50,468 nucleotides of DNA, from NCBI GenBank assembly GCA_001797315.1, contig MGPC01000039.1, forward strand, positions 1 to 50,468, in the 5' to 3' direction. Both the position numbers and the translations under genes were made by a program. The stretch's first letter is position 1; each line of letters starts with the position of its first letter. The notes beneath the pieces are model-generated. The model made no database searches, had not been told where the DNA came from, and saw only the letters and a list, made by a program, of their open reading frames with translations. This document shows positions 39,930 through 50,468 of this stretch, in pieces. This DNA is from Curvibacter sp. GWA2_64_110. Its GTDB lineage: Bacteria > Pseudomonadota > Gammaproteobacteria > Burkholderiales > Burkholderiaceae_C.

Positions 39930-41177
39930 ATGTCGAATACCGCCCCATGCTCAGCGACGCCCGCCGGCGCTGTCAGCCTGCGCCAGGACGCCAGTTTGAT
40001 CGGTCTCATCGGTCTGGCGCACCTGGTCAGCCATTTCAGTCAGCTGCTGCTGCCGCCGCTGTTTCCGTGGCTGAAGGAGGCGTTCAACGCCAGTTATGCC
40101 GAGTTGGGTTTTCTGATGACGATTTTTTTCGTCGTTTCCTGCTCGGTGCAGACGCTCTCCGGTTTCTGGGTCGACCGCTTCGGGCCGCGTCCGGTGCTGT
40201 ATGCGGGCCTGGGCTTGCTGGCATTGGCCGCCTTCGGCTTTGCCCTGAGCACCAGCTACGTGATGCTGATGCTGTTTGCCGTGGTGGCCGGTGCCGGCAA
40301 CGGCGTGTTCCACCCGGTGGACTACACGCTGATCAACCGCAAGGTCAGCGCGCCGCGCCTGGGCCATGCCTACAGCGCGCACGGCATCAGCGGCAACCTG
40401 GGCTGGGCTGTGGCACCGGCCTTGCTGGTGCCGCTGGCGCTGCTGTTTTCCTGGCGGGTGGCGCTGGCGGTGGCCGGTACCCTGGTGCTGGCGGTGCTCG
40501 TCCTGTGCTGGTTCCAGCGGCCCCGGCTGGCCTTGCCCGCCAGTGCACCGGCCGGCCGGCCGGCTGCCGGTGCCGCAGCCGAGGGTAGCCTGGCCTTTCT
40601 GCGCATTCCAGCGGTCTGGATGTGCTTCGCCTTTTTCTTCATCTTTGCCATGGCCTTGAGCGTGGTGCAGGCCTTTGCACCGGAGGCCTCGCGCCAGCTG
40701 CATGCCGTTCCGTTGAGCCTGGTGGCGGTCTGTCTGACGGCCTACATGGTGGCCAGCGCCAGCGGCATGCTGGTGGGTGGCTTTCTCGCTACCGACCCAG
40801 CGCGCAGCGAGCAGGTGGTCGGCAGCGGCTTTGCCGTGGCCGCAAGCGTTTCGCTGCTGCTGGGGTTGGCTTCGCTGCCGGCGGTGGCTGTGCCGCTGCT
40901 GTTTGCCCTGATGGGTTTTGCGGCCGGCTTTGCCGGTCCTTCGCGCGATCTGCTGATCAAACGCTCCACGCCGGAGAACGCCAGCGGCCGCGTCTACGGC
41001 GTGGTGTATTCGGGGCTCGATATCGGGCAGGCCGTCTCGCCGCTGATCTTCGGCGTGCTGATGGACCAGCAGGCCTACCGCCTGCTGTTCGTCGGCCTGG
41101 CGCTGGTGCAGCTGACGCTGGTGGTGACGGCTTTCCGGGTGCGGCGCGTGCGGCGTACCGTCGCGGTGTCGGCCTGA
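39930..41177 (+). CDS. MFS transporter (fosmidomycin-resistance-like)
   Basis: The product is 415 residues from ATG 39930, with twelve membrane segments. The loop 2-3 motif is GFWVDRFGPRPVLY. GNGVFHPVDYTLINRKV, with its FHP motif, is characteristic of the Fsr-like group, and a matching block in the second half is GFAGPSRDLLIKRSTP. The substrate is not evident. It starts 90 bases from the divergent metal exporter and converges on the glycine-zipper gene. Confidence 0.9.
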   Translation: MSNTAPCSATPAGAVSLRQDASLIGLIGLAHLVSHFSQLLLPPLFPWLKEAFNASYAELGFLMTIFFVVSCSVQTLSGFWVDRFGPRPVLYAGLGLLALAAFGFALSTSYVMLMLFAVVAGAGNGVFHPVDYTLINRKVSAPRLGHAYSAHGISGNLGWAVAPALLVPLALLFSWRVALAVAGTLVLAVLVLCWFQRPRLALPASAPAGRPAAGAAAEGSLAFLRIPAVWMCFAFFFIFAMALSVVQAFAPEASRQLHAVPLSLVAVCLTAYMVASASGMLVGGFLATDPARSEQVVGSGFAVAASVSLLLGLASLPAVAVPLLFALMGFAAGFAGPSRDLLIKRSTPENASGRVYGVVYSGLDIGQAVSPLIFGVLMDQQAYRLLFVGLALVQLTLVVTAFRVRRVRRTVAVSA

Positions 41178-41213
41178 GGGTGGTTGGCCGGGCTCAATCG
41201 ACGACGGTTTTCC

Positions 41214-41999
41214 TCATTCCAAGGTTTCAAGCCTGCCTTCGGCACCCGCCCTCACGCGCTGTCCCACGGTGAAATTCGGCATCTCCTTGAATTTCCAGGT
41301 TCGCATGGTGCCGTTGTCGAGCTTCACATCCACGTGCCAGACCTTGTATTTGAGTCGCTTGGCCACCTCGTTGCCCGCATAGGCGCCCGCGCCGGCACCT
41401 GCGATGGTTGCCAGGTCCTTGCCGGACCCGCTGCCGACTTGACTGCCCAGCAAGCCGCCGACGACACCACCGGCCACCATGCCCGGCACACTCGTCTCGC
41501 CCGACTCTTCCCACGCTTCCTTCACCGCCACCACGCGTCCGCAGCCGGCGCAACTGGGGGTCTTGACGGCCGTGCTTGTTTTCGCCGCCGGTGCTGCCCC
41601 CGGGGCCTGCGCCCAGGCTTCGCTCACGACGCCGCGTTTGCTCAGGCTCGCAGCGAAAGAGCGCTTGTCGAAGCGGTCACTGCGACGGATCACGTAAGCG
41701 CCCTCATAGACGCCCATGTCCGTCTCCTTGAGCGCCACCGTCCTGGAGCCGCTGGCGAGCTTGAACATGACTTGCGCCTTGCCCCCGGGCTCGCCTCGAA
41801 TCACGAAATTGATCTTCGCATCGGCCTTGTATTCGGCGGGCTCCTGCACCGAAAACTCATCCAGCATTTTGGAGCCTTCCCCATAACGGGTCTTCAAACC
41901 CGGAAGGCCCTCGGCCAAGGCACTCATGCACACGCCTAACCACAAGGCCAGGACCAATGAACACCCTGCGCGTTGGATCGACATTCGCTTGTCACTCAT
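41214..41999 (-). CDS. Glycine-zipper 2TM-domain protein, exported
   Basis: The product is 261 residues from ATG 41999 behind AGGAGA. A signal peptide (residues 7-30; ALWLGVCMSALAEG) is present without a clear lipobox. The central part (about 35-130) resembles a periplasmic beta domain with the block DMGVYEGAYVIRRSD. The glycine zipper is GMVAGGVVGGLLGSQVGSG...GAGAGAYAGNEVAKR (about 178-215), as in SlyB/PcP-type outer-membrane proteins. CAGCGRV may bind metal or form a disulfide. A role in envelope integrity is inferred from the family. Divergent from the ThDP enzyme gene. Confidence 0.8.
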   Translation of the reverse strand: MSDKRMSIQRAGCSLVLALWLGVCMSALAEGLPGLKTRYGEGSKMLDEFSVQEPAEYKADAKINFVIRGEPGGKAQVMFKLASGSRTVALKETDMGVYEGAYVIRRSDRFDKRSFAASLSKRGVVSEAWAQAPGAAPAAKTSTAVKTPSCAGCGRVVAVKEAWEESGETSVPGMVAGGVVGGLLGSQVGSGSGKDLATIAGAGAGAYAGNEVAKRLKYKVWHVDVKLDNGTMRTWKFKEMPNFTVGQRVRAGAEGRLETLE

Positions 42000-42266
42000 G
42001 GCATTTCTCCTGGGTCGGTTCCGGATCGACCGGTTTCCTGCCCGCTTGCTTTGCTGGGGCATCGTCATTAAGCGCCCGAAACGCGCTCGCGCGCAAGTGC
42101 TGAAGATCGGCAATTCACCGGCATCAACTGGGCGAGCCCACTGCGTGGTGAATTGCATCAAGCGTCCAGGTGCTTTGCCGGCCCTTGTCGTCCCGGCTGT
42201 GACCGGGCCGGGGCAAGGCTGCAAGGATAATCAGCGCCCATCACAGCAAGTACTTGGATTTCAAAC

Positions 42267-43958
42267 ATGGCTAAGCAAGCAGCAGGGCATCTGATCGTCG
42301 AATGTCTGGTGGCCCAGGGGGTCGAAGTCGCCTTCGGTGTGCCGGGCGAGAGCTACCTGGCCGTGCTCGACGGCTTTCATGCCTACCGCGACCAGATCCG
42401 CTTCGTCACCAACCGGCAGGAGGGCGGCGCCGCCTTCATGGCCGAGGCGCAGGGCAAGCTGACCGGACGGCCCGGGGTGTGCTTCGTGACGCGCGGCCCC
42501 GGCGCCACCAACGCCTCCATCGGCGTGCACACGGCGTTTCAGGACTCGACGCCCATGGTGCTGTTCGTCGGCGACGTGGCCAGCGACATGCGCGACCGAG
42601 AAGCGTTCCAGGAGGTGGACTACTGTTCCTTCTTCGGCCCCAGTACCAAGGGTTTTGCCAAGCGCGTGGAGCGCATCGACGACGCGCGTCGTATCCCCGA
42701 GTACGTGGCGCGCGCCTTCGCCACCGCCATGAACGGCCGGCCCGGCCCGGTGGTGCTGGTGCTGCCGGAAGACATGCTGGTGCAGGAGGTGGACGTGGCA
42801 CCGCTGCCGCGCGTTGATGCGGTTGAGGCTTGGAGTGACCCCGGTGCCTTGCGCAGCCTGCGCGAGCTGCTATTGAAATCGGAGCGTCCGCTGGTCATTG
42901 CCGGTGGCGGCGGCTGGACGCCGCAGGCGGCCCAGGCGCTGCAGCGCTTTGCCGAGAACTGGAAATTGCCGGTGGCCAACGCCTTCCGCTTTCAGGACAC
43001 CTTCGACAACCACCACCCGCAATACGCCGGCGACGTGGGCATTGCGCCCAACCCGAAGCTGGCCCAGCGCGTCAAGGACAGCGACCTGATCATCGCCATC
43101 GGCCCGCGCCTGGGCGAGATGACGACCGGCGGCTACACCTTGCTGGAGGCGCCGCGCACCCGGCAGAAGCTGGTGCACCTCCACGCCAGCGCCGAGGAAC
43201 TCAACCGCGTCTACCAGGCGGACCTGGCGATCAACGCCAGCATGAATGCCGCGGCGCGTTCGCTCGAGGTGCTGAGCGCGCCGCCCTCGGTGCCGTGGGA
43301 GAGCTGGACCCAGGGCTGCCAGGCCGACTACCTGGCCAACCTGCAGCCGCAGGCGCTGCCGGGCGACATCGACATGCCGGCCATCGTGGCCACGCTGCAG
43401 AAGCACTTGCCGGCGGATGCGGTGGTCACCAACGGCGCCGGCAACTTCGCCAGCTGGGTACACCGCTTCTGGCGCTACACCGGCCTGGCCAAGGGCCACA
43501 AGACGCAACTGGCACCCACCAACGGCGCCATGGGCTACGGCGTGCCGGCCGGTATCGCGGCGGCCATCCTGACCGGTCGCACCGTGTTCACCATTGCCGG
43601 CGACGGCGACTTCCTGATGAACGGGCAGGAGCTGGCCACCGCGGTGCAGCATGGCGCCAAGACCATCATCGTGCTGCTCAACAACAGCATGTACGGCACC
43701 ATCCGCATGCACCAGGAGCGCGAGTACCCGCAGCACGTGAGCGGCTCGCAGCTGCAGAATCCGGACTTCGCAGCGCTGGCGCGCGCCTACGGCTATGCCG
43801 GCGTGCGCATCACGCGCACCGCTGAGTTCGAAGCCGAGCTGAAGGCGGCGCTGGCGCGTGCCGAGGGCACGCTGATCGAGGTCACGCTCGACCCGGAGGT
43901 CATCACCACGCGTGGCACCTTGAGCGCCATCACGCAGACCGCTCTGGCCAAGGGCTGA
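42267..43958 (+). CDS. Thiamine-diphosphate-dependent enzyme (acetolactate synthase-like)
   Basis: The 563-residue enzyme has three ThDP-family domains. The N-terminal Pyr domain has the catalytic Glu52 in VTNRQEGGAAFMAEA. A central domain follows (about 195-330). The C-terminal PP domain has the metal/ThDP motif GDGDFLMNGQELATAVQ...LLNNSMYG (GDG-X-NN, about 445-475). It resembles catabolic IlvB-like and sulfoacetaldehyde or glyoxylate carboligase relatives. There is no regulatory subunit gene nearby, which argues against biosynthetic acetolactate synthase. The substrate is undetermined. Confidence 0.88.
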   Translation: MAKQAAGHLIVECLVAQGVEVAFGVPGESYLAVLDGFHAYRDQIRFVTNRQEGGAAFMAEAQGKLTGRPGVCFVTRGPGATNASIGVHTAFQDSTPMVLFVGDVASDMRDREAFQEVDYCSFFGPSTKGFAKRVERIDDARRIPEYVARAFATAMNGRPGPVVLVLPEDMLVQEVDVAPLPRVDAVEAWSDPGALRSLRELLLKSERPLVIAGGGGWTPQAAQALQRFAENWKLPVANAFRFQDTFDNHHPQYAGDVGIAPNPKLAQRVKDSDLIIAIGPRLGEMTTGGYTLLEAPRTRQKLVHLHASAEELNRVYQADLAINASMNAAARSLEVLSAPPSVPWESWTQGCQADYLANLQPQALPGDIDMPAIVATLQKHLPADAVVTNGAGNFASWVHRFWRYTGLAKGHKTQLAPTNGAMGYGVPAGIAAAILTGRTVFTIAGDGDFLMNGQELATAVQHGAKTIIVLLNNSMYGTIRMHQEREYPQHVSGSQLQNPDFAALARAYGYAGVRITRTAEFEAELKAALARAEGTLIEVTLDPEVITTRGTLSAITQTALAKG

Positions 43959-44002
43959 TCCCGTTGAGAGACGCCTCCCCGCAGCGGGAGGCGCGCCCAA
44001 GA

Positions 44003-44031
44003 AAAAAGGCCGACTTTGCAGCCGGCCTTTT
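44003..44031. terminator. Bidirectional terminator after ThDP enzyme and H1-like gene
   Basis: AAAAGGCCG pairs with CGGCCTTTT, giving A- and T-runs on either side. A further 8-bp hairpin, CGCCTCCC/GGGAGGCG, lies at 43972-43993. Confidence 0.88.
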
Positions 44032-44050
44032 GCGTCACAGGCGAACCTGA

Positions 44051-44515
44051 TTACTTGAGGTGCTTGCCGATCAGGCCAGCCATCTCGAACATGGACACCT
44101 GGGCCTTGTTGAAGACTTCCTTCAGCTTGGCGTCGGCGTTGATCATGCGCTTGTTGACGGCGTCCTGCAGCTTGTTCTTCTTGATGTAAGCCCACAGCTT
44201 GCTGACCACTTCGGTGCGCGGCAGCGGGCTGTTGCCCACGATGGAAGCCAGAGCGGCGCTGGGGGTCAGGGCCTTCATGAAGGCGGCATTCGGCGTGCGC
44301 TTCTTGGCCGGAGCCTTCTTGGCGGCTACTTTCTTTGCCGGAGCCTTCTTGGCGACGACCTTCTTCGCAACGACCTTCTTGGCCGGAGCCTTCTTAGCCG
44401 GAGCCTTCTTCGCGACTACTTTCTTAGCCGGAGCTTTCTTAGCAGCGACTTTCTTAGCCGGAGCAGCCTTCTTTGCGGGCGCCTTTTTAGCCGGAGCTTT
44501 CTTTGCAGTTGCCAT
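44051..44515 (-). CDS. Histone H1-like tail fused to a SWIB domain
   Basis: From ATG 44515 (AAGGA upstream) the product is 154 residues. The first 70 are low-complexity KKAPAKK/KKVAAKK/KKVVAKK repeats, strongly basic like bacterial H1 homologues, encoded by degenerate 15-base units. The rest (about 73-150) is a SWIB/MDM2 domain ([41 protein letters not shown]). It probably coats or compacts DNA. Family members occur in many Burkholderiales. The tail length is likely to vary between strains because of the repeats. Confidence 0.9.
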
Positions 44516-44756
44516 GATTGATTGTCCTTCTAGAAGTTGATTAATCACCAGCGAAGAACTGCTTCCTAGCTGGCATTGCGGATGCTACTGGAGAAAAATC
44601 GCATTTCCAAGCGAAAAATCGTTTTTTCCCCTCTGAGCTGTTGTTTTTTTCATCGTAAGTCGCAAGGCAGTTTCACTTGGAAAATAGCGCAAGCTCCCCT
44701 TGAGTTCCCTTTCGGGGACCATTCAACCTACCTTGACCGAGAGGAATTCACGCCAA

Positions 44757-45254
44757 ATGAGCATCTCTTTTGCAACCTGCGACCTGTGCGACAGCTTCAA
44801 GAACGACAGCACGGGAGACTTCCGTGTCCTGCCCCCGGTGTTCCGCGATTACGGCGCCGTGCGCGCCTTCTGCGGCCCGGTGGTGACGGTCAAATGCTTC
44901 GAGGACAACTCGCTCGTGAAGGCGGCGGTCGATTCTCCCGGGCAGGGCCGCGTGCTGGTGGTCGACGGCGGCGGCTCGTTGCGCCGGGCTCTGCTGGGCG
45001 GCAATCTCGGTGCCGCCGCAGCGCGCAACGGCTGGGCCGGTGTGGTGATCGACGGTTGCGTGCGCGACGTGGCCGAGCTGGCGACGCACCCGGTCGGCAT
45101 CCGCGCGCTGGCCAGCATGCCGCTGCCAACCGAGAAGCGCAACGAGGGCCAGCGTGATGTGGCGGTGCAGATCCAGGGCGTCTGGGTGCGCCCGGGCGAC
45201 TGGCTGTATGCCGATGCCGACGGCATCGTGATCAGTAGCAAGCCGCTGGTCTGA
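44757..45254 (+). CDS. rraA: RraA family: ribonuclease E inhibitor / HMG aldolase
   Basis: The product is 165 residues from ATG 44757 behind GAGAGGAA. It has the RraA pattern: FRDYGAVRAFCGPVVTVKC, then GGNLGAAAARNGWAGVVIDGCVRD (the G-X20-R-D motif used by 4-hydroxy-4-methyl-2-oxoglutarate aldolases to bind a divalent metal and substrate), and VWVRPGDWLYADADGIV. It may act as an aldolase/oxaloacetate decarboxylase or modulate RNase E; the sequence supports the metal-binding aldolase residues. It is divergent from the H1-like gene. Confidence 0.9.
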   Translation: MSISFATCDLCDSFKNDSTGDFRVLPPVFRDYGAVRAFCGPVVTVKCFEDNSLVKAAVDSPGQGRVLVVDGGGSLRRALLGGNLGAAAARNGWAGVVIDGCVRDVAELATHPVGIRALASMPLPTEKRNEGQRDVAVQIQGVWVRPGDWLYADADGIVISSKPLV

Positions 45255-45525
45255 GCTGTGCCTGTGCGGGCGCATGGCTCGCACGGTACAGCGCATGCAT
45301 GGCATGTCTGCCTGGGGGGCGCCCAGTGCGGGCCGGCCTGAACGCGCCATGTCGATGCATGCAGACCCGTGTGCCGCATGCGGTGCAGCGGCTGCCGTGG
45401 CGTCATTTCAAAATGCATTCTTTGATTTCATATTGAGAAATGTTCGATTGATGCGCTGCGTCAAATTTTCTCAATACGAGATATGAGATTTCATATCGCG
45501 AGTTATTGTATGTAACTCATTGATT

Positions 45526-45555
45526 TTGCTTGATTAAATTTATGTCTTGTATAAG
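45526..45555 (+). promoter_or_regulatory. Candidate sigma-70 promoter of aceA
   Basis: TTGCTT at 45526-45531 and TATAAG at 45550-45555 are separated by 18 bases. The -10 element lies inside the first operator palindrome. Confidence 0.5.
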
Positions 45556-45589
45556 ACATAAGAGGTGTGCAAAGTCTTATAGAAGACTT
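45540..45589. promoter_or_regulatory. Paired operators GTCTT-N4-AAGAC upstream of aceA
   Basis: Two palindromes share the core GTCTT-N4-AAGAC. One (45540-45561) has 9-base arms TTATGTCTT/AAGACATAA. The second (45572-45589) has 7-base arms AAGTCTT/AAGACTT. Their centres are 30 bases apart, about three helical turns. They overlap or follow the predicted -10, as repressor sites would. Confidence 0.65.
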
Positions 45590-45678
45590 AAAGTTCAGTC
45601 ATCGGTTCTCGAAATGTGCCAATCCGCCAAGCGCAGCGGCACCACCGACTGGTTTCATGTAACTCAAGGAGAAATCTC

Positions 45679-46998
45679 ATGCCGCAAACCCTGACTGAAC
45701 AACTCAGCCGCGAACAGCAGATCGCCGCCCTGGAAAAAGACTGGGCCACCAACCCCCGTTGGAAGGGCATCGAGCGCGGCTACACCGCCGCCGACGTGGT
45801 GCGCCTGCGTGGCTCTTTCCCGATCGAGCACACGATTGCCCGCCGCACCGCCGAGAAGCTGTGGGACATGCTGCAGACCGAGCCCTTCATCAACTGCCTG
45901 GGCGCCCTGACCGGTGGCCAGGCCATGCAGCAGGTCAAGGCTGGCGTGAAGGCCATCTACCTGTCGGGCTGGCAGGTTGCTGCCGACAACAACACCTACA
46001 CCTCCATGTACCCGGACCAGTCACTGTACCCGGTGGACTCGGTACCGCGCGTCGTGGAAAGCATCAACAACACCTTCCGCCGCGCTGACGAGATCCAGCA
46101 CGCCAAGGGTATCAATGCCGGCGACAAGGGCTACATCGATTACTTCGCGCCGATCGTGGCCGACGCCGAAGCCGGTTTCGGCGGTGTGCTCAACGCCTTC
46201 GAGCTGATGAAGGCCATGATCCGCGCCGGTGCCGGCGGCGTGCACTGGGAAGACCAGCTGGCTTCCGTCAAGAAGTGCGGCCACATGGGCGGCAAGGTGC
46301 TGCTGCCCACCCGTGAGTCCTGCCAGAAGCTGATCGCTGCCCGCATGGCAGCCGACGTGATGGGCGTGCCCACCCTGGTGATTGCCCGTACCGACGCGGA
46401 AGCTGCCGACCTGCTGACCTCCGACTACGACGAGATCGACAAGCCCTTCCTGACCGGTGAGCGCACCAGCGAAGGTTTCTACAAGACCCGCAAGGGCCTG
46501 GACCAGGCTGTCGCCCGCGCCAACGCCTACGCCCGCTACGCCGACCTGGTGTGGTGCGAGACCGGCACCCCGGACCTGGACTTCGCCAAGAAGTTCGCCG
46601 ATGCCGTGCACAAGGTTCACCCCGGCAAGATGCTGGCTTACAACTGCTCGCCTTCGTTCAACTGGAAGAAGAACCTGGACGATGCCACCATCGCCAAGTT
46701 CCAGCGCGAACTCGGTGCCATGGGCTACAAGTACCAGTTCATCACGCTGGCCGGCATCCACTCCATGTGGTACAACATGTTCGACCTCTCGCAGGACTAC
46801 GTGAAGCGCGGCATGAGTGCCTACGTGGAGCGCGTGCAGGAGCCCGAATTCGCGGCTCGCGACCGCGGTTATACCTTCGTGTCGCACCAGCAGGAAGTCG
46901 GTACCGGTTACTTCGACGATGTCACCACCGTGATCCAGGGCGGCAAGTCCAGCGTGACCGCGCTGACCGGCTCCACCGAGGAAGAACAGTTCCACTAA
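45679..46998 (+). CDS. aceA: Isocitrate lyase
   Basis: The product is 439 residues from ATG 45679 behind AAGGAG. The isocitrate lyase signature KKCGHMGGK contains catalytic Cys200. Metal and substrate residues are present in [20 protein letters not shown] and [10 protein letters not shown], and the conserved [10 protein letters not shown] follows. It cleaves isocitrate to glyoxylate and succinate, the first step of the glyoxylate shunt during growth on acetate or other C2 sources. No malate synthase gene is in the window. Expression is probably controlled through the palindromes in its promoter. Confidence 0.96.
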
Positions 46999-47027
46999 GC
47001 ACGAAGTACTAAGTACTCAGCCATCCT

Positions 47028-47071
47028 ACGGGGCTGACGCACCTGCGATATCGCAGGTCCGTCGGCCCCGT
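47028..47071. terminator. Long hairpin downstream of aceA
   Basis: ACGGGGC...CCTGCGA pairs with TCGCAGG...GCCCCGT over about 20 base pairs with one mismatch and one G-U. The T-tract after it is weak (CAATTTTC), so it may stabilise the aceA mRNA end or terminate poorly. Two overlapping AGTACT palindromes precede it near 47006. Confidence 0.55.
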
Positions 47072-47108
47072 GCAATTTTCGGGATCGATTTTGATTACTT
47101 TGGGAAAT

Positions 47109-47153
47109 GCCGTCATTCAATAAGATTAATAAAGTCTTATTGTGATTGACGGT
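47109..47153. promoter_or_regulatory. Long palindrome upstream of the ketopantoate reductase-like gene
   Basis: Nested inverted repeats CCGTCA...TGACGG and CAATAAGA-N9-TCTTATTG are centred near 47130 in an AT-rich stretch, about 160 bases before the next start. The inner arm includes GTCTTATTG, similar to the second aceA operator (GTCTTATAG), which hints at a shared regulator. Confidence 0.5.
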
Positions 47154-47289
47154 AAAAGAATTTAATTTACCTTATTAGCTGCTGTTTATATATTTGCGGC
47201 ATACCGAGCTGGCTGCCTCGTTTTCTCGACGAGCATCCCCCCGCTGAAACGATTTCTGAAACTACGGGCCCGAAGGGGCATATATCACC

Positions 47290-48390
47290 ATGAGCAAGAA
47301 ATTCAACATCCTTATCCTGGGCGCGTCTTATGGCTCCCTGCTCGCCAGCAAGCTGCTCATGGCCGGGCACTCGGTCAGCCTGGTGTGCCGTCGTGACACT
47401 GCCACCCTGATCAACAGCGAGGGCACCCGCGTGCGCATGCCGGTCAAGGGCCGCGAGGGCCTGGTCGAAATCGATTCGCGCCAACTGCCTGGAAAACTCA
47501 GTGCCGTCACCCCCACGGATGTCAAGCCCGAGCAGTACGACCTGGTCTGTCTGGCCATGCAGGAGCCGCAGTACAGCGCTTCCGGCGTGCGCGAGTTGAT
47601 GAAGGCCATCGCCTTGGCCAAGGTGCCTTGCATGTCCATCATGAACATGCCGCCGCTGCCTTACCTGGCCCGCATTCCTGGTCTGGATGCCAGCGGCCTG
47701 CGTGCCTGCTTCCACGACGCGACCGTCTGGGATGACTTCGAGCCCGGTCTGATGACCCTGTGCAGCCCCGATCCGCAGGCCTTCCGTCCGCCGGAAGAAA
47801 AGCCGAACGTGCTGCAGGTCGGCCTGCCGACCAACTTCAAGGTGGCCCGCTTCGAGAACCCCGCCCATACCGCCATGCTCGAGCAGATGGAAGCCGACAT
47901 TGCCGCTGCTCGCCTGACGGTGAACGGCGAAGCGATCGATCTGCCCGTCAAGCTCAAGGTGCACGACTCCATCTTCGTGCCGCTGGCCAAGTGGGCCATG
48001 CTGCTGACGGGCAACTACCGCTGCGTCGGTGCCGATGGCATGCGCCCCATCCGCGATGCCGTGCACGGCGACATCGAGCTGTCGCGCCAGATCTACGGCT
48101 GGGTGGTGGACCTGTGCGTGCAGTTGGGCGCTTCGCGTGACGACATGGTGCCGTTCGAGAAGTATGCTGCTGCCGGGCAAGGGCTGATGAAGCCGTCCTC
48201 CGCGGCCCGGGCTCTGGCGGCCGGTGCCACCGACATCGAGCGTATCGACCTGCTGGTCAAGCTGGTGGCTGAGCAGAAGGGCTTGCGTTCCGAGTCGGTG
48301 TGCGAGACGGTCCGGCTGATCAACGGCTGGCTTGAGCGCAACCGCAAGGCAGCCGCCGAGAAGAAGGCGGCCGAAGCGGTCGTCGCCTGA
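47290..48390 (+). CDS. Ketopantoate reductase (ApbA/PanE)-family protein
   Basis: The 366-residue protein has an N-terminal Rossmann fold with ILGASYGSLLASKLLMAGHSVSLVCRR (NAD(P) binding; GASYGS replaces the usual GxGxxG). LVCLAMQEPQYSASGV is the cofactor-site region, and a helical C-terminal domain ends in an Ala/Lys-rich tail. The catalytic Lys/Glu arrangement of PanE (N-K...S-ND-E) is not obvious, so the true substrate is probably another 2-oxo acid or opine-like compound. It stands downstream of aceA but has its own regulatory palindrome. Confidence 0.75.
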   Translation: MSKKFNILILGASYGSLLASKLLMAGHSVSLVCRRDTATLINSEGTRVRMPVKGREGLVEIDSRQLPGKLSAVTPTDVKPEQYDLVCLAMQEPQYSASGVRELMKAIALAKVPCMSIMNMPPLPYLARIPGLDASGLRACFHDATVWDDFEPGLMTLCSPDPQAFRPPEEKPNVLQVGLPTNFKVARFENPAHTAMLEQMEADIAAARLTVNGEAIDLPVKLKVHDSIFVPLAKWAMLLTGNYRCVGADGMRPIRDAVHGDIELSRQIYGWVVDLCVQLGASRDDMVPFEKYAAAGQGLMKPSSAARALAAGATDIERIDLLVKLVAEQKGLRSESVCETVRLINGWLERNRKAAAEKKAAEAVVA

Positions 48391-48411
48391 GCAGGACCTG
48401 AGGCTGACAAG

Positions 48412-48436
48412 AAGCCGGGTGTCTGCCCGGCTTTTT
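48412..48436 (+). terminator. Intrinsic terminator after the ketopantoate reductase-like gene
   Basis: AAGCCGGG pairs with CCCGGCTT and is followed by a T-run. Confidence 0.88.
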
Positions 48437-48494
48437 CATATGTGTCTGCGGGGCAGGGCGTGTCTCACCGCTGCCTTGCGGGCCGGCTCTCGGG

Positions 48495-48500
48495 TAGAAT
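48495..48500 (+). promoter_or_regulatory. Probable -10 element of the thrS leader transcript
   Basis: TAGAAT lies 58 bases before the leader-peptide ATG and just after the preceding terminator. No good -35 is seen at standard spacing, so this is tentative. Confidence 0.4.
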
Positions 48501-48552
48501 CGAGCCTTCGGACGCGTCGTCCAGTCACAAGAGCGAGAAAGGCACCCCGGTT

Positions 48553-48603
48553 ATGACACCGCGAACTACCACCACCCGATTGATACGTCTCAGGGGTTGC
48601 TAG
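48553..48603 (+). CDS. Threonine-rich leader peptide of thrS
   Basis: ATG 48553 opens a 16-codon frame, [16 protein letters not shown], ending at TAG 48601-48603. Five of sixteen codons are Thr, with four consecutive ones (ACT ACC ACC ACC, 48565-48576). AAAGG at 48538-48542 lies ten bases upstream. Position between a promoter-like element and a strong terminator directly in front of thrS is that of an attenuation leader. Ribosomes would stall at the Thr codons when charged tRNA-Thr is scarce. Confidence 0.8.
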
Positions 48604-48604
48604 T

Positions 48605-48671
48605 CCGCGCGCCCCGGGCGCAAGGTGCTATCGAATTCAAAGCAAGGCGCGGTCTCTACCGCGCCTTTTTT
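48605..48671 (+). promoter_or_regulatory. thrS attenuator (antiterminator strand plus terminator)
   Basis: The terminator is AAGGCGCGGT (48644-48653), loop CTCT, ACCGCGCCTT and a run of six T (48666-48671), ending 20 bases before thrS. CCGCGC at 48605-48610 is complementary to GCGCGG (48647-48652) of the terminator's left arm, so it can form a competing antiterminator. A ribosome that finishes the leader would cover 48605-48613 and allow termination; one stalled at the Thr codons would leave it free. A further small stem, GCGCC-CCG-GGCGC, could form at 48608-48620. Confidence 0.75.
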
Positions 48672-48691
48672 CTTTTCTGCGAGTGAGTAAT

Positions 48692-50468
48692 ATGGTTCAG
48701 ATTACGCTTCCTGACGGTTCCAAACGTGATTTTCCCGGCCCGGTGACGGTGGCCGAGGTGGCGGCCTCCATCGGTGCCGGCCTGGCCAAGGCGGCGCTGG
48801 CCGGCAAGATCGGCGACAAGGTGGTGGACACGAGCTACCAGATCACCGCCGACAGCCCGCTGTCCATCGTCACCGCCAAGGATGCCGACGGCCTGGAAGT
48901 CATTCGACATTCCACCGCCCACTTGCTGGCCTATGCCGTCAAGGAACTGTTCCCTGATGCCCAGGTGACCATCGGCCCGGTGATCGACAACGGTTTCTAT
49001 TACGACTTCTCCTACAAGCGCCCGTTCACGCCTGAGGACCTGACCGCGATCGAGAAGAAGATGGCCGAGCTGGCCGCCAAGGACGAGCCGGTGGTGCGCC
49101 GCGTGCTGCCGCGCGACGAGGCGGTGGCCTATTTCAAATCGCTGGGCGAGCACTACAAGGCGGAGATCATCGCCAGCATTCCGGCCGATCAGGACGTGAG
49201 CCTGTACCGCGAAGGCCAGTTCGAAGACCTGTGCCGTGGCCCGCACGTGCCCAGCACCGGGAAACTCAAGCATTTCAAGCTCATGAAAGTGGCCGGTGCC
49301 TACTGGCGCGGCGACCACCGCAACGAGATGCTGCAGCGGGTCTATGGCACCGCCTGGGCCAGCAAGGAAGAGCTGCAGCAGTACCTGACCATGCTGGAGG
49401 AAGCCGAGAAGCGCGACCATCGCAGGCTGGGCCGCGAGCTCGACCTGTTCCACATCGACGACCATGCCCCGGGCCTGGTGTTCTGGCACCCCAAGGGCTG
49501 GACCGTGTGGCAGGGCGTGGAGCAGTACATGCGCCAGGTCTACCGCGACAACGGCTACCAGGAGGTCAAGGGTCCGCAGGTGATCGACAAGACGCTGTGG
49601 GAGAAGACCGGCCATTGGGACAAGTACCGCGAGAACATGTTCACCACCGAGAGCGAGAAGCGTGAATATGCTTTGAAGCCGATGAACTGCCCGGGCCACA
49701 TCCTGATCTTCAAGCAGGGCATCAAGAGCTACCGCGACCTGCCGCTGCGCTACGGCGAGTTCGGCCAGTGCCACCGCAACGAGCCCTCGGGCGGCCTGCA
49801 CGGCATCATGCGTGTGCGCGGCTTCACGCAGGACGACGGCCACATCTTCTGTACCGAAGACCAGATCCTGGACGAGTGCGTCAACTTCACGGCGCTGCTG
49901 CAGAAGGTCTACAAGGACTTCGGCTTCACCAACATCATCTACAAGATTGCGACCCGGCCGGAAAAGCGCATCGGCTCGGACGAGAGCTGGGACAAGGCCG
50001 AAGCCGCCTTGATGGCCAGCCTGAAGGCCGCCAACTGCGAGTACGAGATCGCCCCCGGCGACGGCGCCTTCTACGGCCCGAAGATCGAGTACACGCTGAA
50101 AGACGCCATTGGCCGCCACTGGCAGTGCGGCACCATCCAGGTCGACTTTTCCATGCCGGAGCGACTGGATGCCGAGTACGTGGGCGAGGACGGCGGCCGC
50201 CACCGCCCGGTCATGCTGCACCGGGCCATCGTCGGCAGCCTGGAGCGTTTCATCGGGATTTTGATCGAGGAACACGCCGGCGCGCTGCCCACCTGGCTGG
50301 CGCCGGTGCAGGTGGCGGTGCTCAATATCACCGACTCACAGGCCGATTACTGTCGTGAAATTGCGGAAAAACTGCGAAAATCTCTGCCGAATCAAGAACT
50401 TAGAGTCATCACGGACCTGCGCAACGAGAAAATTACGTATAAAATACGGGAGCATTCAATGCAGAAGC
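48692..50468 (+). CDS. thrS: Threonyl-tRNA synthetase, 3' end outside window
   Basis: The frame runs from ATG 48692 (GAGTGAG upstream) off the window end, giving 592 of about 635-640 residues. The TGS domain occupies roughly 1-62. The editing domain has [13 protein letters not shown] (HxxxH) and [12 protein letters not shown]. The class II catalytic core follows, with motif 2 around [21 protein letters not shown] and Zn ligands Cys (MNCPGH), His (DDGHIFC) and His (MLHRAIVGS). Part of the anticodon-binding domain is present up to the edge. It attaches Thr to tRNA-Thr in the cytoplasm. infC and the ribosomal protein genes commonly follow thrS but are outside the window. Confidence 0.97.

Follow-up and report, generated by a model that had tools for sequence, protein, structure and literature searches.

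A predicted threonine leader-peptide attenuator upstream of thrS in Curvibacter and related Betaproteobacteria

Results

Organization of the thrS locus in Curvibacter

The sequence analysed here, hereafter the window, is a stretch of 50,468 nucleotides from contig MGPC01000039.1 of Curvibacter sp. GWA2_64_110 (assembly GCA_001797315.1). Its last gene, with an ATG at 48692, matches four Pfam domains of threonyl-tRNA synthetase (ThrRS), namely TGS, tRNA_SAD, tRNA-synt_2b and HGTP_anticodon, and is assigned as thrS. Between this gene and its upstream neighbor lie a short open reading frame, designated thrL, and a predicted intrinsic terminator (Table 1). The predicted thrL peptide comprises 16 residues with threonine at codons 2, 5, 6, 7 and 8, the last four of them consecutive, and a purine-rich stretch resembling a Shine-Dalgarno sequence, GAGAAAGG, immediately precedes the frame. 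Translation of this Thr-rich frame is predicted. The terminator consists of a 10-bp stem, a 4-nt loop and a T run behind it, and its folding energy of -17.3 kcal/mol, calculated on the window sequence, is matched by none of 200 shuffles. A preliminary description of this DNA reported a 16-residue leader with four consecutive Thr codons, the strand CCGCGC after its stop codon and a strong terminator with a 10-bp stem before thrS; each of these elements is present, CCGCGC occupying 48605-48610 from the second base past the TAG.

Table 1. Coordinates of the features upstream of and including thrS in the window.
Feature	Position	Strand	Basis or remark
Candidate -10 box TAGAAT, putative leader promoter	48495..48500	+	Read in sequence; no good -35 recognised
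Near-invariant 19-mer GGTTATGACACCGCGAACT over leader start	48549..48567	+	Comparison of 204 regions
thrL, predicted leader peptide ORF	48553..48603	+	ATG 48553, TAG 48601-48603; read in sequence
Region 1, CCGCGAAC	48559..48566	+	Would pair with post-stop segment if ribosome-free; complement enrichment
Region 2, CCGCGCGCC	48605..48613	+	Would compete between region 1 and terminator 5' arm
Region 3, terminator 5' arm AAGGCGCGGT	48644..48653	+	Terminator scan; core GYGCGG conserved
Region 4, terminator 3' arm ACCGCGCCTT	48658..48667	+	Leads into T run; terminator scan, folding
T run after terminator stem	48668-48675
thrS, threonyl-tRNA synthetase	48692..50467	+	Pfam match; continues past contig end

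A 19-mer spanning the leader start, GGTTATGACACCGCGAACT, occurs once in the window, where 0.01 copies are expected with up to three mismatches. A search of the Curvibacter genome at two mismatches found no second copy of this motif, and positions 48540-48691 returned one match in the same genome. The gene on the 5' side is a 366-amino-acid open reading frame (47290-48390) whose N-terminus is Rossmann-like and for which Pfam gives no match at 1e-5; it is situated between an isocitrate-lyase-like frame and the thrS leader. It is followed at approximately 48412-48436 by an inverted repeat and T run that were read by eye and were not listed by the terminator scans. In several relatives without the leader, an isocitrate-lyase-like frame lies directly 5' of thrS.

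The leader and its promoter element in near relatives

Regions upstream of thrS were assembled from two sources. The first comprises 80 named loci, the best 80 of 579 candidates, mostly from Comamonadaceae and with Massilia, Achromobacter, Cupriavidus and others represented. The second comprises genomes of the same family, 148 of 150 of which yielded a match; 130 of these 148 regions were read, made up of the Curvibacter genome itself, 29 loci and 100 further regions. The combined 210 regions, three with an unsure thrS start being retained, reduce to 204 distinct sequences that represent near relatives and not one family. Because these sequences are related, counts across regions are not independent.

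A frame fitting M-[TSAP]-P-[RK]-[TS], a rule that leaves residues 2, 4 and 5 partly free, is present in 157 of the 204 distinct regions and reads MTPRT in 156 of the 157. Best matches to the 19-mer fall into two groups over the same 204 regions, 158 with zero to three mismatches and 46 with at least six. Named carriers of the leader include Acidovorax, Comamonas, Polaromonas, Hylemonella, Roseateles, Massilia and Janthinobacterium.

Closer examination of 176 motif-bearing leaders, whose codons 2-5 were largely fixed by the selection and whose codons from 6 onward lie outside the selected part, reveals threonine at codon 6 in 131 (74%) and at codon 7 in 87 (49%), with all four wobble bases represented at both positions; the background is approximately 5% of codons in long window frames (634/12,651). 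Since threonine is frequent beyond the selected part and is written with all four wobbles, the amino acid itself seems to be selected at codons 6-7, and past codon 5 the leader looks conserved at the protein level. A four-Thr run was rejected as a conserved feature: threonine occupies codon 6 in 74% of leaders but codon 8 in 20%. Only two Thr codons occur in 19 of the 176 leaders. What persists of the earlier emphasis on the Thr run is thus a conserved Thr-containing leader, whereas the element held constant is a nucleotide string, GGTTATGACACCGCGAACT, wobble bases included.

Of 153 regions (two others being dropped for short upstream sequence), 126 have the hexamer TANAAT within the 20-100 nt preceding the motif, compared to 4.9 expected by single-base shuffling. 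The box lies mostly 41-55 nt before the motif and at 54 nt in the window; a strict sigma-70 scan of the window found no promoter. Because this box is upstream of the motif, transcription probably begins before the leader, a placement indicated by the -10 box enrichment. A transcription start downstream of the leader, named in the preliminary description as an observation that would speak against attenuation, is not borne out by these data.

At eight loci in which a leader frame was not found (L022, L025, L041, L051, L052, L101, L109 and L151), a GYGCGG hairpin precedes thrS by approximately 36-48 nt and is itself preceded, at 33-37 nt, by a TANAAT box; such leaderless hairpins would be close to the 5' end of the RNA.

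Conservation and covariation of the terminator

A permissive finder places a terminator in 175 of the 176 motif-bearing regions, with a median of -15.9 kcal/mol, and a strict finder does so in 137 of 155. Of the 204 regions, 48 lie outside the motif set, and 25 of these 48 retain the GYGCGG hairpin near thrS, several of them with no detected leader. Covariation was scored on 160 stems anchored on the GYGCGG core, 15 others being dropped, which gave 118 distinct rows; the anchor permits only purine/pyrimidine choices at three pairs. Forty-six cells are changed on both sides of the stem, compared to 12.0 in shuffles, and 0 of 500 shuffles reach 46. The proposed check of the terminator, conservation of its stem in relatives with compensatory changes, thus gave a positive outcome.

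Competing pairings between leader and terminator

An attenuator of this type would rely on three mutually exclusive pairings, namely region 1 with region 2 (1:2), region 2 with the terminator 5' arm (2:3) and the terminator itself (3:4). Among 172 post-stop spacers, complements of region 1 are enriched (GTTCG 54 vs 12.6 expected, TCGCG 56 vs 22.0), and so are complements of region 3 (CGCGCC 64 vs 9.7, CGCGC 83 vs 25.1). In 148 of the 172, the best partner segment for region 1 overlaps that for region 3, and the mean duplex z-scores of the two pairings over these sequences are -1.01 and -0.99. The median distance between the first base of the stop codon and the start of the 2:3 segment is 6 nt, a position that a terminating ribosome would cover. 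Elsewhere in the leader frame, complements of region 1 are underrepresented (GCGG 9 vs 23.1 expected, GTTC 9 vs 21.6), and GCGG is so upstream as well (13 vs 34.4). An extension of 2:3 to AGCGCG was rejected, its complement CGCGCT occurring 5 times vs 6.4 expected.

The competing antiterminator of the preliminary description is thus convincing across genomes, where the complements are enriched, but in the window alone it performs no better than shuffled sequence. There, 46 of 200 shuffled spacers form 2:3 equally well and 84 of 200 form 1:2 equally well, and upon simulated stalling region 2 folds into a local hairpin and 172 of 200 shuffles fold equally well. Mutually exclusive pairings are consequently indicated in aggregate over the 172 sequences and are not significant in the window alone.

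Folding across genomes with simulated ribosome positions gives a pairing of the terminator arm of 0.69 in the stalled state (0.61 in shuffled sequences) and of 0.58 with the ribosome at the stop codon (shuffled 0.57), a shift in the expected direction. In ribosome-free leader RNA the value is 0.68, near that of the stalled state, which a simple model does not predict; folding alone therefore fails to show that 1:2 protects the terminator. In a separate inspection by eye, four loci (L212, L223, L229 and L230) displayed a possible hairpin after the stop codon, CGAC-NCUA-GUCG, whose loop contains or adjoins the leader UAG.

A nearly invariant nucleotide block at the leader start

Eighteen of the 19 motif positions are conserved at 95% or above in 155 regions, some of these positions being fixed by the search pattern. 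That pattern fixed several first- and second-codon-position bases; the wobbles at codons 2-5 were free, as were the four bases preceding the ATG. Under the looser peptide selection, 157 leaders use ACA at codon 2 in 155 cases, CCG at codon 3 in 157, CGA at codon 4 in 150 and ACT at codon 5 in 139, and GGTT precedes the start codon in 151. To set a scale, 86 fourfold-degenerate thrS codons with a conserved box were compared in 50 of these genomes; their median majority wobble frequency is 0.70, one of them reaches 0.95, and A is the commonest wobble base in none. In window frames the codons ACA, CGA and ACT are minor ones, contributing 7.6%, 7.2% and 6.9% of their respective boxes. The NGU before the start codon is mostly GGU, with CGU in families f3, f35 and f47.

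The segment around the start codon, GGTTATGACA (48549-48558), is nearly invariant among relatives. Pairing of this segment with the post-stop spacer was rejected, since its complements are mostly not enriched there (TAACC 1 vs 3.2 expected, ATAAC 0 vs 1.5, CATAA 0 vs 2.5), with TCATA (11 vs 3.7) as the exception. Self-pairing within the 19-mer, GGUU with AACU, was likewise rejected upon reading the exceptions, which occur without compensation. Compensation for the CGCTGACT variant of families f10 and f23 appeared good by eye at one locus and failed at others, and is not claimed. Judged by these comparisons, the invariant start-codon block is accounted for by neither coding nor pairing.

Distribution beyond near relatives

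With up to two mismatches, the 19-mer is found in 42 of 300 genomes of the order, compared to approximately 11 for a reversed control pattern. Forty of the 42 matches sit before thrS, in 9 of 51 families, and two (G169 and G222) are elsewhere by position or reading. A sample of the class gave matches in 5 of 185 genomes, comprising the Curvibacter genome, one of its family and three not before thrS. The motif outside the order was rejected: these three matches carry two mismatches and lie away from thrS, and the reversed control matched six genomes.

Forty deeper regions of the order, chosen for family spread and motif variants, were read, and the leader is absent from many of them. Adding the 48 regions of near relatives that fall outside the motif set gives 88 regions, including one duplicate pair. 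A short frame with Arg-Thr plus more Thr occurs in 22 of the 88, compared to 5.3 expected by shuffling; one of these 22 is the duplicate and one (L117) resembles chance. CGA-AC[T/G] is used by 21 of the 22, examples being MFKRTTTTRISR, MQLNRTTTTS and MFLPLARTTTRNFRPMSR, and on this account CGA-ACU plus Thr codons may be the ancestral core of the leader. The 1:2 pairing was rejected as a rule in the deeper families, GTTCG occurring in 6 of 22 deeper leader-bearing regions, selected by eye, vs 3.4 expected.

At nine order loci picked by eye (L245, L248, L258, L263, L264, L268, L270, L274 and L281), a tRNA-Val(GAC) gene lies close 5' of thrS, an arrangement that suggests a joint tRNA-thrS transcript. 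A leader was found in only two of these nine regions.

Discussion

A ribosome-mediated attenuator and its alternatives

The conserved leader, the covarying terminator and the -10 box upstream support the reading of this locus first offered in the preliminary description, and we consider it highly probable that a ribosome-mediated transcription attenuator sensing charged tRNA-Thr precedes thrS. The transcript would begin a short distance past the -10 box near 48495, with immediate translation of the leader peptide. With abundant threonyl-tRNA, the ribosome would reach the stop codon and cover region 2, the 3:4 terminator would form and thrS would be off. When threonyl-tRNA is scarce, the ribosome would stall at the Thr codons and cover region 1, leaving region 2 free to pair with the terminator 5' arm, and RNA polymerase would then read into thrS and probably also into the genes behind it. 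Because a Thr leader and a switchable terminator are conserved together in relatives, more ThrRS is probably made when charged threonine tRNA is low.

A more elaborate form of this attenuator, which we put forward tentatively and regard as rather unlikely, would add a second input to codon sensing. The invariant start block GGUUAUGACA would be recognised in a sequence-specific manner and would gate leader translation, so that stalling is tuned jointly by the start site and by three minor codons, ACA, CGA and ACU; candidate recognisers are the initiating ribosome, ThrRS, a trans RNA and RNA polymerase pausing. If so, CGA-ACU, mainly kept in the deeper leader-bearing families, would represent an ancestral Arg-Thr codon-pair sensor.

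The same block invites comparison with autoregulation by ThrRS, under which the invariant leader segment would be a protein-binding operator as in E. coli thrS and the peptide incidental. The invariance is indeed at the nucleotide level, wobbles included, and is partly unexplained by pairing, and the NGU in front of the start codon might be seen as a Thr anticodon. However, the motif lies approximately 140 nt before the thrS start, and in the 155 regions the flank 5' of the invariant NGU is variable, so that a conserved anticodon-like stem of the E. coli type was not seen. Moreover, Thr codons remain frequent past the motif with their wobble free, and what is conserved between the leader and thrS is a terminator. 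Together these observations make operator control improbable at this locus.

About equally improbable is a model without sensing, in which the thrS mRNA level is set by a plain terminator, or a 5' hairpin, whose strength is constant. The persistence of the hairpin in regions outside the motif set, several with no detected leader, would fit such a role, as would the near identity of the ribosome-free and stalled folds. A hairpin of this kind does not explain the coding signature and Thr enrichment of the leader, the -10 box placed before it, or the complementarity of the post-stop segment to both the leader core and the terminator arm. Finally, that the hairpin terminates the upstream gene and the leader frame arose by chance is scarcely credible: the hairpin does lie between two same-strand genes, but the 366-amino-acid frame appears by eye to have its own inverted repeat and T run, and leader and hairpin stay with thrS despite different neighbors.

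Assuming an attenuator, its effect may extend past thrS. The genes that come after thrS in six genomes are infC, rpmI, rplT, pheS and pheT, these five having been checked by Pfam in one genome, and we infer that they are cotranscribed with thrS. With infC through pheT behind thrS, initiation factor 3, two ribosomal proteins and phenylalanyl-tRNA synthetase could also come under the same threonine signal. The invariant start block is an oddity that would bear on ideas of how leader frames evolve.

Comparison with known systems

The Thr operon leader (thrL-thrABC) combines a Thr-rich leader peptide with a terminator in response to a threonine signal. It controls biosynthesis genes; the leader described here precedes a tRNA synthetase gene and encodes an MTPRT-type peptide. 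An Rfam search of 40000-50468 with E up to 1 returned a chance hit and no match to this leader family, which we take to be Thr_leader (RF00506), nor to a T-box. The pheST attenuator of E. coli, in which the pheM leader peptide controls an aminoacyl-tRNA synthetase gene, is likewise leader-peptide control of a synthetase, with Phe codons and another gene. In E. coli thrS, the same gene and also controlled at its leader, ThrRS itself represses translation and no leader peptide takes part.

T-boxes precede thrS in at least 29 of 34 Firmicutes, as given in an excerpt of PMC2494555; they share with the predicted attenuator antitermination that responds to tRNA-Thr charging, and differ in binding uncharged tRNA directly (PMC2494555). 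Attenuators of leuS and trpS have been predicted in Streptomyces (excerpt of PMC1262725), and His leaders are described before hisS paralogues in bacilli (excerpt of PMC2965389); the excerpts of PMC3766115 and PMC4833913 contain nothing on thrS. Closest in kind is Streptomyces lividans, for which an excerpt of PMC8079986 lists a Thr-containing leader, thrL, before thrS as an attenuator. As given in that excerpt, the peptide is MKRVRPFLETTPGFVPAR, with two Thr, on a leaderless transcript with one hairpin and no U-rich run, and it bears no resemblance to MTPRT (PMC8079986).

We found no report of a betaproteobacterial thrS attenuator in the literature searched, which excluded Lopatovskaya 2010 (a survey of synthetase attenuators) and Vitreschak 2004, and an earlier prediction may exist. 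The preliminary description had called a leader-peptide attenuator for thrS unusual and possibly undescribed; a Thr leader before thrS is a known kind, being annotated in S. lividans (PMC8079986, in part), but the betaproteobacterial family may well be undescribed. If the present reading is correct, a widespread leader-peptide attenuator of a tRNA synthetase would be added in Betaproteobacteria, with thrS then answering to a T-box in Firmicutes, an operator in E. coli and, here, a leader peptide.
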